From positions 387-64,386 of the forward strand of contig NZ_VTOK01000019.1 in assembly GCF_009765375.1 (NCBI RefSeq): 64,000 nucleotides of DNA, written 5' to 3'. The number at the start of each line of letters is the position of its first letter. The stretch's first letter is position 1. The translations under genes and the position numbers were made by a program. The stretch comes from Alteribacillus sp. YIM 98480 (GTDB lineage: Bacteria; Bacillota; Bacilli; Bacillales; Marinococcaceae). This document shows positions 10,077 to 63,077 of the stretch, piece by piece. The notes beneath the pieces are model-generated. The model was given only the letters and a program-made list of their open reading frames with translations. It had not been told where the DNA came from and did not search any database.

Positions 10077-10141
10077 GTTTAACTTTGTTAAAGGTTCAAA
10101 GTATAAGCGCCATAGGACTCGGAGACAAGTCGAGTTCTAGG
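10077..10141 (+). repeat. Dispersed hairpin element, forward copy 3 (short hairpin)
   Basis: It carries the family head AACTTTGTTAAAGGTTCAAA followed by GTATAAG and GGACTCGGAGACAAGTCGAG. The outer AAAACT/AGTTTT arms are reduced compared with the copies at 5007 and 45757. Confidence 0.65.
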
Positions 10142-27625: not shown

Positions 27626-28015
27626 GAAAAGCACAAGCGCCCTGGTCAGCCGCGACAGGTTCTGGAGCTTTCGCGCAGGGTCGCCTGTAGCCCGGAGTCG
27701 AAAGGGGAGACATCAGACGTTCAGCTCATTTTAATGAACTTCTACTAAGATCGCACACGTCGACGCATAGGATGTGCTAATGTCGCCAATGCCACAGGAC
27801 GTAGCGTTTTTGGCGACGAGTGTGCAACGTAGAAGTCACCACATCGTGTGGAAGGACGTCCTGTGACAACGCTGAACGGGCTTGCACAGGAGGTGTTGAC
27901 TTTTGCGTTGCGACAGGACGTTCGCGGTTTTAGCAAAAGTTCCTCTTTATCGTGTGCGCCTGAGCGCTGAAGCTAGACATCAAAAACGCCAACTATTTAT
28001 CATTTCTTACCTTTT
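27626..28015. repeat. Long dispersed repeat, copy A, split by an insertion
   Basis: The left part (27626-27709) matches 42963-43046 almost base for base through CCGCGACAGGTTCTGGAGCT, and the right part (about 27960-28015, from GAGCGCTGAAGCTAGACATC) matches 43069-43119. Between them lie about 250 bases absent from the other copy. The two parts were therefore once contiguous. Confidence 0.8.
27738..27836. repeat. Palindromic element inserted within copy A
   Basis: Nested inverted repeats ACTTCTAC/GTAGAAGT, GCACAC/GTGTGC and GTCGCCA/TGGCGAC define a hairpin of about 100 bases. ACAGGACGT occurs in it and again near 27912, and its reverse ACGTCCTGT near 27854, so the insert may be a cluster of related short elements. 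No transposase is encoded. Confidence 0.65.
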
Positions 28016-49831: not shown

Positions 49832-50677
49832 TTGCCAATTCAGTGGAATGAAATAAAAACAGCGATATTTGATTTGGATGGAACATTGTATGAAGATACT
49901 CATCATTTTGAGTACTATGCAGCATTACTAGAAGAAAAGCTAGATAAGAACGATCGGAATTCTTTTAGAAAAGATTATGAAAACATGCTGAAAGGAAAGC
50001 ATCCGGTGGCTGTCGGCCGTGTATATGATGCAGTCCGCGACCGTGTGTTAGAAGTAGATCCGGAAACAAACCGAGTTATAAACACATGGGATTGGGAAGG
50101 AAAACCCGTTACAAAAGAAGAGGAATATAAAGAGCCGATTACTTTTGATTTTGATTCAATGATTGCGATTGGAGATGGTTGGTGGCTCCCTGTAGCAGCA
50201 GCAAAGCACTATGGTGTGCAAAGTACTTATGATGCTTACCATAAAACTAAGGAATTTATGCAAACAGAAGCCTTTCAATTTACTGAACAGCCCGAACGGC
50301 GAAAAGCGCTTAAGCAGCTTAGAGATCATATGAAACTTATTCTTATCACGAATTCTCAAGCAGATGATGTAAAACGGCTGCTTGATACTTTAGATTTAAA
50401 CGGTATTTTTCATGAAGTGATTGCTAATGCCAAAAAGCCTGTACACACTGAAGAGCACTTCAAAAAAATAATAGAAACAGAAGAGATACTGCCAAATGAA
50501 GCGGTCTCGCTTGGTGATAACTATTTAAATGATATCGTTCCAGCAGAAAATCTTGGAATGAACGCTGTCCTTATCGACCCACAAGGCTGTACAACGACAC
50601 GCGGACATACAGAGTGTGTTCAATCACTGACAGACTTATTTCCAACCATTAAGAAATTACAGCACACTTCCTTTTAG
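49832..50677 (+). CDS. HAD-superfamily hydrolase
   Basis: A 281-residue haloacid-dehalogenase-fold phosphatase. Motif I is AIFDLDGTLY near residue 12, motif II LILITNSQADD near 170, the Lys of motif III in ANAKKPVHTEEHF near 207, and motif IV AVSLGDNYLNDIVPAENLGMNAVLID near 228. All catalytic residues are present. The substrate is unknown. The TTG start is chosen because GGAAGG lies five bases upstream and the conserved region begins soon after; the longer upstream frame has no ribosome site. It is divergent from the secreted OB-fold gene. Confidence 0.88.
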   Translation: MPIQWNEIKTAIFDLDGTLYEDTHHFEYYAALLEEKLDKNDRNSFRKDYENMLKGKHPVAVGRVYDAVRDRVLEVDPETNRVINTWDWEGKPVTKEEEYKEPITFDFDSMIAIGDGWWLPVAAAKHYGVQSTYDAYHKTKEFMQTEAFQFTEQPERRKALKQLRDHMKLILITNSQADDVKRLLDTLDLNGIFHEVIANAKKPVHTEEHFKKIIETEEILPNEAVSLGDNYLNDIVPAENLGMNAVLIDPQGCTTTRGHTECVQSLTDLFPTIKKLQHTSF

Positions 50678-50755
50678 AAAAACTGGGCTTTCTGCCAAGT
50701 ACGAATGTCGAAAGCTAGTTTTGCTTATGCTTTGATCGTTTAACAAAGTTAAATA
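50675..50755 (-). repeat. Dispersed hairpin element, reverse copy 1
   Basis: It starts at the HAD stop codon with AGAAAAACTGGGCTTTCTGC and ends TTAACAAAGTTAAAT. The hairpin is degenerate. It may serve as the 3' end of the HAD transcript. Confidence 0.65.
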
Positions 50756-50793
50756 TTTTAAAAGTATTAAGGTAAACTCGCCAATTAGCAGTC

Positions 50794-50823
50794 TTGACAG
50801 GCGAAGGTACGCAAACTTAATAT
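50794..50823 (+). promoter_or_regulatory. Strong sigma-A promoter of a candidate small RNA
   Basis: A consensus TTGACA (50794-50799) is separated by 18 bp from TAATAT (50818-50823). No protein gene on the plus strand follows until 53552. TCGCC (50778-50782) and GGCGA (50800-50804) are inverted repeats around the -35 box. Confidence 0.65.
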
Positions 50824-50829
50824 GGAAGT

Positions 50830-50962
50830 ATTTATCTGTAACCGGAAAAATCTCATTACTTAGGGAAATGGCTCTAGTGGTATGGCTAAAGCTACGTTGT
50901 TATACCGATACGGATCTCTGGTCGCTGCATTACTTCCAGAATACACTAGAGCCTTTTTCTTT
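50830..50962 (+). ncRNA. Candidate small RNA with three-way-junction fold
   Basis: From the predicted start near 50830 to the T-run at 50954-50962 the transcript would be about 130 bases. Its closing stem is a perfect GGCTCTAGTG (50870-50879) with CACTAGAGCC (50944-50953), followed by TTTTTCTTT. Inside are two further stems, GGTAT/ATACC and TCTGG/CCAGA, so the closing helix both completes a three-way junction and acts as terminator. It has its own promoter, no open frame of note, and is convergent with the flavoprotein gene at 51005. I recognise no known RNA family. Confidence 0.5.
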
Positions 50963-51004
50963 CATACAGCTTCCGTTTTCATATCTAACGCTTGGGAAAA
51001 AACT

Positions 51005-51574
51005 CTACTTTGATTTTAAAACGTCATGGTCTACATAACGTTCACCATTTAATTCCGTAAGTACATTTATCGCTACTTTTGCTCCGTCACCTGCAGTAAT
51101 AATCGTGTGTACACTCACACCAGCAACGGTCCCTGCTGCCCATACGCCTTGTACGCTTGTTTTGCCAGCATCATCTGTGTCTATGATTGTTTTAATACGC
51201 GGTTCCTTTCCTTCCGCTGTTTTTATACCTGATGTTTCTGCAAGCTTGGTGTTTCCTCCAGTTGTCATAATAACGTGTTTGGCTTCATAGCTGCCGTCAT
51301 CTGTCTCGACTATTACGCGCTGATCTTTTTCATTTTTTACGGTATTGACCTGGGTTTTTACCATTTCCGCTCCGAACTTTTGCGCTTGTTCTTTTCCTGT
51401 TTGCAAAAGCTCAGGTCCTTCGATTTCCGGAACACCGTAGTGGTTTTCTACCCAAGCTGCTTTGGTCATGCTTTGATCGTTATCAAGGACGAGAGTTTTC
51501 TTACCTGCTTTTGCAGTAAATAATGCAGCACTTGCGCCGGCAGGTCCTGCTCCGACAATAATTACGTCATACAT
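51005..51574 (-). CDS. Half-size thioredoxin-reductase-like FAD protein
   Basis: A 189-residue protein that begins MYDVIIVGAGPAGASAALFTAKAGKKTLVLD, a canonical FAD dinucleotide-binding fold, and ends with VQGVWAAGTVAGVSVHTIITAGDGAKVAINVL, the thioredoxin-reductase FAD-closing motif. Normal thioredoxin reductases have about 310 residues, with an NADPH domain and a redox CxxC between these halves. Both are missing here and the two FAD half-domains are joined directly. It could be a flavin carrier or an oxidoreductase that uses a partner. GGAGGAG precedes the start. Confidence 0.82.
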   Translation of the reverse strand: MYDVIIVGAGPAGASAALFTAKAGKKTLVLDNDQSMTKAAWVENHYGVPEIEGPELLQTGKEQAQKFGAEMVKTQVNTVKNEKDQRVIVETDDGSYEAKHVIMTTGGNTKLAETSGIKTAEGKEPRIKTIIDTDDAGKTSVQGVWAAGTVAGVSVHTIITAGDGAKVAINVLTELNGERYVDHDVLKSK

Positions 51575-53178: not shown

Positions 53179-53320
53179 ATATATCCCTTCCTTCAAAAGC
53201 GCAAAAACTAGTATCTTTCTAACCATACCATATTTTCAGACTTATACGTTTCCTTTTAAAATTATTGGTAAAAGGTGTATGATTACTATAGGAAGCAACC
53301 GCTGGATGCTGATGAAATAT

Positions 53321-53400
53321 TAGAAAAACTTGACTTACCTCCAATCCCTATGGAGGAAGTCATAGTTTTACTTATACTTTGTTCATTTTAAAAAAGTTAA
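53321..53400 (-). repeat. Dispersed hairpin element, reverse copy 2
   Basis: AGAAAAACTTGACTTACCTC and TATGGAGGAAGTCATAGTTT form the hairpin region, followed by ACTTATACTTTGTTC. The tail lacks the TTAACAAAGTT of the next copy. Confidence 0.75.
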
Positions 53401-53415
53401 TCATTTCTAAAGTAT

Positions 53416-53510
53416 TAGAAAAACTTGACTTACCGCCAACACCTATGGCGTAACTCATAGTTTTGCTTATAATTTATTCCGTTAACAAAGTTAAACTTTC
53501 CTAAAGTATC
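53416..53510 (-). repeat. Dispersed hairpin element, reverse copy 3 (near complete)
   Basis: AGAAAAACTTGACTTACCGC with CCTATGGCGTAACTCATAGT gives the hairpin, followed by TTTGCTTATAATTTATT and GTTAACAAAGTTAAACTTT. It directly follows the previous copy in the same orientation. Confidence 0.78.
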
Positions 53511-53551: not shown

Positions 53552-54595
53552 ATGAAAATTGATCAATGGATGTCCCGTATACCTTCCCTGGATAAGGAAG
53601 CAGGCGATAAAGCAGCAGCATACATAGATAATTTAACGAAACCACCGGGAAGTCTCGGCCGTCTTGAAACCATCGCAGCCAAATTAGCCGCCATGACTGG
53701 CAATCCTTTTCCAGATGTCACACCAGCGGGCGTGCTTGTGTTCGCGGCTGATCACGGCATCACTGCAGAAGGTGTGTCTGCTTTTCCTCAAGAAATAACG
53801 GTGCAGATGGCCAAAAACTTCTTAAAAAAAGGCGCTGCTATCAATGTGTTTTCTAATCAAATCAATGCCGATTTCCAGCTGATTGATATTGGAATGGCCA
53901 AAGAAGTAAACGAAGACGGAATTATTTCGAGAAAAATAAAAGCAGGAACGGCCAACTTTTGCAAAGAAGACGCGATGTCAAGAGATGAAGCCGTTCAGGC
54001 GATGGAAGCCGGTTTTGAAGAAGCCGAAAAAATGATTACCCAAAAAGGGATTAAATGCCTGATTTTAGGCGAAATGGGTATTGGCAATACGACGGCAAGC
54101 AGTGCAATGATATCTGCGTTCACCAATAAAAATCCAGCTAGCGTCACAGGTCCTGGTACTGGTCTCACGAAAGAGCGCATGCTTCATAAACAGCATATTC
54201 TTCAAACTGCACTGCAAAACAGAAACATAAATAACCATGATCCACTTGATGTGCTAGCAAAAGTAGGTGGATTGGAAATAGCCGGCATCACCGGTGCCAT
54301 GCTGGCCGCTGCGTCTCATCGGGTGCCCATTTTGGTTGATGGCTTTATTAGTGCTGCCGCTGCCGTTACTGCTCAAGCCCTTTCACCGCTTGCTGCAGAT
54401 TATATGTTCGTCGGCCATTATTCGACTGAACCAGGACATGCTATTGCCATAGAAATACTGGACAAGAAACCTTTGCTTGATCTTCAGATGAGACTTGGCG
54501 AAGGCAGCGGAGCAGCTCTTGCTTTTCCTATTTTGCGTTCAGCTTGTGCGATGGTTCGTGAAATGGCTACCTTTGAAGACTTAGCCAACTATTAA
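53552..54595 (+). CDS. cobT: Nicotinate-nucleotide:dimethylbenzimidazole phosphoribosyltransferase
   Basis: A 347-residue CobT. Motifs are NLTKPPGSLGRLE near residue 30, VFAADHGITAEGVSAFPQEIT near 70, LGEMGIGNTTASSAM near 172, and the C-terminal LRLGEGSGAALAFPI with the catalytic Glu near 317. It makes alpha-ribazole 5'-phosphate for the lower ligand of cobalamin. No other cobalamin gene is nearby, so it may serve salvage of corrinoids. AAAGGAG precedes the ATG. Confidence 0.95.
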   Translation: MKIDQWMSRIPSLDKEAGDKAAAYIDNLTKPPGSLGRLETIAAKLAAMTGNPFPDVTPAGVLVFAADHGITAEGVSAFPQEITVQMAKNFLKKGAAINVFSNQINADFQLIDIGMAKEVNEDGIISRKIKAGTANFCKEDAMSRDEAVQAMEAGFEEAEKMITQKGIKCLILGEMGIGNTTASSAMISAFTNKNPASVTGPGTGLTKERMLHKQHILQTALQNRNINNHDPLDVLAKVGGLEIAGITGAMLAAASHRVPILVDGFISAAAAVTAQALSPLAADYMFVGHYSTEPGHAIAIEILDKKPLLDLQMRLGEGSGAALAFPILRSACAMVREMATFEDLANY

Positions 54596-62991: not shown

Positions 62992-63077
62992 TAAAACCGC
63001 CGAGTCCTATGGCGGAAGACGTAGTTTCACTTATATTTTTTTCCTTTTACAAAGTTAAATAATGTTCCTAAAGTACA
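62992..63077 (-). repeat. Dispersed hairpin element, reverse copy 5
   Basis: AAAACCGCCGAGTCCTATGG and CGGAAGACGTAGTTTCACTT are followed by TTTACAAAGTTAAATAATGT and CCTAAAGTA. The CCGCC/GGCGG inner stem is intact but the outer arms are shortened. Confidence 0.7.

Follow-up and report, generated by a model that had tools for sequence, protein, structure and literature searches.

A candidate intrinsic terminator whose loop is branched and unusually long, between convergent genes of Alteribacillus sp. YIM 98480

For intrinsic terminators, a Term-seq study (PMC12207403) gives a median loop of 4 nt, reports a U count of 7–9 for most species, and quotes canonical prediction limits of 3–13 nt for the loop and an upper limit of 59 nt for the whole stem-loop. 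We describe here an element from a 64-kb stretch of Alteribacillus DNA (the window) that has a stable GC-containing hairpin with a U-rich tract directly 3′ of it. Compared with these figures (PMC12207403), its U count after the helix, 8 within 10 nt, lies inside the 7–9 range, and its 64-nt interior and total length of 84 nt lie outside the limits. Because both loop and stem-loop exceed what is canonical, we label the element terminator-like and non-canonical. A terminator scan restricted to loops of 3–8 nt did not list it.

On balance, we favor the view that this element, placed between convergent genes, is an intrinsic terminator of the plus strand whose loop is branched and unusually long. 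This is the most economical reading because of the convergent position, the one-sided U-tract, the lack of any other terminator-like hairpin in the gap, and the hairpins found at the same position in a neighboring genus. Polymerase arriving from the left would be released at the U-tract (about 50954–50962) once the 10-bp helix closes, having started either at a predicted promoter at 50794–50823, which would yield an orphan RNA of about 130 nt, or at a site farther to the left. Helix and U-tract can be read directly from the DNA; termination and the short transcript we infer. A putative orphan transcript of this size, running from promoter to U-tract, is plausible, and it would probably have no conserved trans-acting role.

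The closing helix is formed by a 5′ arm, GGCTCTAGTG (50870–50879, plus strand), and a 3′ arm, CACTAGAGCC (50944–50953, plus strand). These pair over 10 perfect base pairs, six of them G-C, and enclose 64 nt. Both arms were identified by direct reading, folding and a repeat search, which recovered them as a 14-nt match at 93% identity, flanks included. The U-tract TTTTTCTTT (50954–50962, plus strand) follows immediately, and the U-rich sequence directly 3′ of the helix, TTTTTCTTTC, contains T at 8 of 10 positions. Only on the plus strand does such a tract follow the helix; read on the minus strand, the helix lacks one. Folding places two stem-loops in the interior, both on the plus strand: GTATGGC/GTTATAC with a 12-nt loop (50880–50905), which has seven pairs, two of them G-U, and an eighth G-C pair possible at the expense of the last outer pair, and TCTGG/CCAGA (50917–50940). 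Between them, the minimum free energy (MFE) fold adds a marginal 3-bp plus-strand mini-hairpin, GAT-ACGG-ATC (50907–50916). Since this is absent from the centroid, the junction may be three- or four-way. The earlier note, made from the sequence alone, had described a perfect 10-bp helix around a 64-base interior with its 3′ strand running into a T-tract, as well as two further stems, and all of these are present; its three-way junction holds for the centroid, with the MFE fold admitting a fourth arm.

The predicted fold stands out against shuffled sequence. The 88 nt at 50869–50956 fold at -28.9 kcal/mol (z = -3.52), and no shuffle out of 200 did as well. The same was true of the presumed 132-nt transcript (50831–50962; z = -3.46, 0/200), and a 151-nt segment (50820–50970) gave a weaker result (z = -2.00, 6/200). 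Across both strands of the window, we found two T-tailed perfect 10-bp stems enclosing 30–110 nt; 40 shuffles gave 0.8 on average. When at least six G-C pairs were required, only the helix at 50870–50953 remained, and none occurred in the 40 shuffled windows.

Upstream lies a predicted sigma-70/sigma-A-like promoter (50794–50823, plus strand), consisting of TTGACA at 50794–50799, an 18-nt spacer and TAATAT at 50818–50823, all by direct reading. It is followed after 46 nt by the 5′ arm of the closing helix, in line with the promoter and the interval of about 45 bases initially noted. It matches 10 of 12 consensus positions. The two strands of the window together have 25 matches of at least 10/12 (about 0.02 per 100 nt per strand), and of these it alone has an exact TTGACA. 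Taken alone, the promoter match is weak evidence, because a regional scan (50500–51200, at least 9/12) found two such sequences, compared with 1.6 expected from shuffles. Promoter spacing and the fold of the 132-nt segment together suggest a 5′ leader for the putative transcript at 50831–50869 (plus strand). As a set, the promoter, fold and terminator-like tail are unlikely to have arisen by chance. We also observed that GGAAGTA (50824–50830), just 3′ of the -10 box, could pair with TACTTCC (50931–50937) in stem-loop 2; this alternative fold would be available only to transcripts begun upstream of the predicted start.

The element occupies a 327-nt gap between two convergent genes. On the left is a plus-strand gene for a HAD-family hydrolase (49832–50677; Pfam HAD_2/Hydrolase), whose coordinates are those of the open reading frame (ORF), with the start codon unassigned; on the right is a minus-strand gene for an FAD/NAD(P)-binding protein resembling pyridine-nucleotide-disulphide oxidoreductases (51005–51574, from ORF and Pfam). 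Their orthologs in a sister species (G001) are 95 and 96% identical, respectively, and the closest named relatives of the oxidoreductase come from Salibacterium salarium and S. aidingense (81–82%). The next recognized plus-strand gene, encoding a CobT-type phosphoribosyltransferase, begins at 53552, so the 2.6 kb without a downstream sense gene that had been noted originally stands. That first description did not mention the convergent gap or the repeat copy within it. This is a copy of an interspersed repeat of about 95 bp (50674–50771, plus strand) with a hairpin, AAAACT/AGTTTT. It takes up the left third of the gap and extends over the end of the HAD gene; its 50674–50740 portion folds no better than shuffled sequence (z = -0.62). 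From 50670 to 51010, neither strand contains a T-tailed hairpin with a stem of at least 7 bp and a loop of at most 30 nt.

Support for a terminator at this position comes from a neighboring genus (g5), in three genomes of which (G006, G014, and G020) the HAD and oxidoreductase genes are also convergent neighbors. A scan with relaxed settings (loop of 3–30 nt, perfect 7-bp stem with three or more G-C pairs, T-tail) showed that all three g5 gaps (L012, L014, and L015) hold a terminator-like hairpin oriented like the HAD gene. These ordinary, smaller hairpins have a 7-bp stem, a loop of 14–22 nt and a T-tail, and 0, 3, and 0 of 200 shuffles of the respective gaps contained one. Two of the three gaps also have such a hairpin in the opposite orientation (at most 3/200 shuffles with one). 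A scan limited to loops of 3–8 nt missed these main hairpins: it returned nothing in L012, and in L014 and L015 it listed a single other site apiece. Given the hairpins in all three gaps, a terminator is what this gap position holds in g5.

The repeat beside the element has many copies. In addition to the gap copy, the window contains copies at 53320–53417, 53415–53509, 5087–4981 (minus strand), and 45833–45759 (minus strand), and partial copies at 10108–10069 (minus strand), 4954–4909 (minus strand), and 63022–63061. Each unit forms a hairpin closed by AAAACT/AGTTTT and has a conserved tail, CTTATACTTTGATCCTTTAACAAAGTTAAAC...CTAAAGTATAA. There are at least 40 matches in the source genome (40 of 166 candidates scored), at least 25 in the sister species with another copy as the query (22 of 300 scored), and at least 23 in G011, from another genus (22 of 74 scored). 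Overall, the repeat was present in 9 of 41 genomes, with none in four g5 genomes, and an Rfam search of the tandem copies at E ≤ 1 gave a single match far below threshold. Elsewhere in the window, two copies of Bacillaceae-1 RNA (RF01690) face each other 30 nt apart, at 27729–27852 (plus strand) and 27883–27949 (minus strand).

No known RNA family had been recognized in the element beforehand, and the Rfam search agrees: none of 4227 families matched it at the gathering threshold, and at E ≤ 10 the region 50600–51100 yielded three matches only, all far below threshold and none credible. A tRNA relic was ruled out, as ARAGORN found no tRNA or tmRNA gene in the same region. Two plus-strand ORFs, of 56 (50868–51038) and 43 (50882–51013) codons' worth of amino acids, cross the hairpin and pass the U-tract. 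We rejected a coding role for these: the longer has no Pfam match and, by eye, an AGGGA one base before its ATG, which is too close; the shorter has no evident ribosome site by eye; and the sister species has a one-base deletion where the ORFs overlap.

Homologs were sought at several phylogenetic depths. BLAST with a 181-nt query (E ≤ 0.001) against 61 genomes, including its own, returned only the window itself. In its own genome the element is single copy, other matches having E ≥ 0.72, and a 174-nt query against the genus (three genomes, own included) gave matches elsewhere only at E ≥ 0.5. A covariance model in which the single sequence was entered twice recovered the element itself and no other credible match among genomes of the family (29), order (397), and class (398); these sets overlap and include the source genome, and stricter filters applied to the order and class searches than to the family search. 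Because the model represents a single sequence, distant structural relatives with a different sequence could be missed. Its weak matches, two in G009 (E = 0.04, in an alignment without the T-tract, and E = 0.37) and one in G092 (E = 0.036, over 65 nt and without inner stem 2), are at chance level for the 29 and 397 genomes searched. Phage matches (11 records, E = 0.2–0.6, 17–25% coverage) were likewise taken as chance, and a plasmid search with the element gave none. Viral contigs contained no instance of the exact hairpin-1 pattern and 77 stretches with the two-arm pattern. Run on those stretches together with L040, the sister-species sequence, and L010, the covariance model gave five matches at E ≤ 10 (best E = 0.043), three of them in alignments lacking either the T-tract after the helix or the inner stems, and the others at E = 7.7 and 9.9. 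A full-text literature search for Alteribacillus with ‘small RNA’ found no paper. Thus, the covariance search for homologous loci that had been proposed revealed the element in no other genome searched, and by sequence it is apparently a singleton, found only in the source species among those genomes.

The sister species offers the one homologous locus. Its HAD and oxidoreductase genes are still convergent neighbors and differ from ours at 16/107 and 22/90 four-fold sites (15–24%); the gap between them is about 754 nt vs. 327 nt in the source. The two sequences agree closely (151/163 identical) from ATACACTAGA-CCTTTTTCTTT into the oxidoreductase gene on the right; leftwards, the agreement breaks off abruptly inside the helix. 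The sister species thus keeps the T-tract and all of the 3′ arm except one G. To the left of this arm, identity is about 50% (66/131 aligned bases), the 5′ arm and inner stems are not kept, and 10 of 25 pairs stay standard, a count in which several outer pairs depend on where MAFFT places the last bases and the 5′ arm. The earlier note had named stems lacking conservation through compensatory changes in relatives as grounds for refutation, and in the sister species this is what the comparison returned. Freely folded, the G001 segment is unremarkable (z = -0.49, 56/200 shuffles as good), and the covariance model did not find the locus even unfiltered. The promoter has no counterpart at this position in G001, whose gap contains three promoter-like matches elsewhere on the plus strand, vs. 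1.6 expected.

Some weak colinear similarity may nonetheless remain left of the 3′ arm. A global alignment over 50806–50942 was matched by 5 of 1000 shuffles and one with other ends (50772–50942) by 57 of 1000; four local tests were matched by 48, 9, 22, and 27 of 500. An alternative 5′ arm, GGGAAATAACTCTGGTG, is identical at 14 of 17 positions and could form about seven outer pairs by eye, so some ancestral pairing is possible; it did not form in the free fold. The 5′ part of the element may have been lost in the sister species or gained in the source species; the missing G would fit decay after loss. Since only a single homologous locus was found, missing covariation is indistinguishable from recent origin. 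The G001 gap has no T-tailed hairpin with a stem of at least 7 bp and a loop of at most 30 nt on either strand, and with the helix not predicted there either, a terminator seems dispensable in that species. The gap (L040, 2347–3100) does hold other GC-rich, repeat-like sequence, GAAAAGCGCAAGCGCC..., which suggests that convergent gaps may collect repeats; a search of it with Rfam gave no match at the gathering threshold. In L255, a stretch similar to this sequence follows the copy of the 95-bp repeat.

The structured small RNA originally proposed retains its promoter, fold, tail and lack of an Rfam family, and loses the expected conservation. That the element is a regulatory sRNA of about 130 nt, young and confined to this species, which acts in trans by base-pairing through its leader or its two 12–14-nt loops, is possible but doubtful. 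The promoter, leader, stable fold and terminator-like tail occur in the right order and spacing, and many sRNAs are narrowly distributed. Against this, no other genome searched has a homolog, and the sister species lacks the promoter and has only about 50% identity left of the 3′ arm despite a four-fold divergence of just 15–24%. With one homologous locus, structure or sequence conserved through compensatory changes was not found, and neither a conserved sRNA class nor a new RNA class is supported. A more elaborate version, in which a branched domain, possibly responsive to a ligand or RNA, is closed by the terminator helix so that folding decides between an end at about 50958 and readthrough, strikes us as highly improbable; if true, such a sensor-terminator would be free-standing, with no adjacent gene to control. 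It is rather unlikely that the structure is decaying or fortuitous, in unconstrained intergenic DNA without useful transcription. The rapid turnover of the gap, with its different length and sequence in G001, the repeat copy within it, and the 10 of 25 pairs kept there would all agree with such an origin, but chance did not produce a T-tailed helix of this kind in any of 40 shuffles, and the fold beats 200/200 shuffles and coincides with a perfect -35 box.

We considered two further readings. We think it very unlikely that the element is a cis-antisense RNA to the mRNA of the minus-strand oxidoreductase gene, opposite the 3′ end of that mRNA, which may itself extend leftwards across the element. 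The transcripts would overlap if that mRNA ends no earlier than 50962, scans of the gap (loop 3–8; stem of at least 7, loop 3–30) found no minus-strand terminator-like hairpin, and a good fold is predicted for the minus strand too (z = -3.16); yet its copy of the helix lacks a U-tract, the overlap would fall entirely outside coding sequence, and G001 has not retained the promoter. The perfect inverted ends and 84-bp length, in a genome rich in repeats, recall a MITE-like mobile element with 10-bp terminal inverted repeats, but single-copy status largely refutes this, no direct target duplication is visible by eye beside the arms, and G001 has the 3′ arm and outside flank without the remainder, leaving such an origin barely credible. 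Taken as a terminator, the element, if transcribed, would exemplify intrinsic termination beyond the loop-length limits of standard predictors, and would add one more orphan sRNA candidate. It opens no new RNA class, and illustrates the gain or loss of intergenic structured elements between close species.

Among known systems, the only Rfam family in the window, Bacillaceae-1 RNA (RF01690), has no match at the element even at E ≤ 10. Generic intergenic sRNA genes share with it a promoter-like sequence, a short leader, a structured body, a terminator-like tail and the absence of a recognized sense gene for 2.6 kb downstream; they differ in that no homolog of the element was found and in that its entire structured body lies within the terminator stem. 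Intrinsic (Rho-independent) terminators of the canonical kind in Bacillota, with a loop of about 4 nt and a 59-nt prediction limit (PMC12207403), are far smaller than its 64-nt branched loop and 84-nt stem-loop. Like them, however, the element has a GC-containing perfect stem that runs into a U-rich tract (8/10 U), and like them it is placed between convergent genes.
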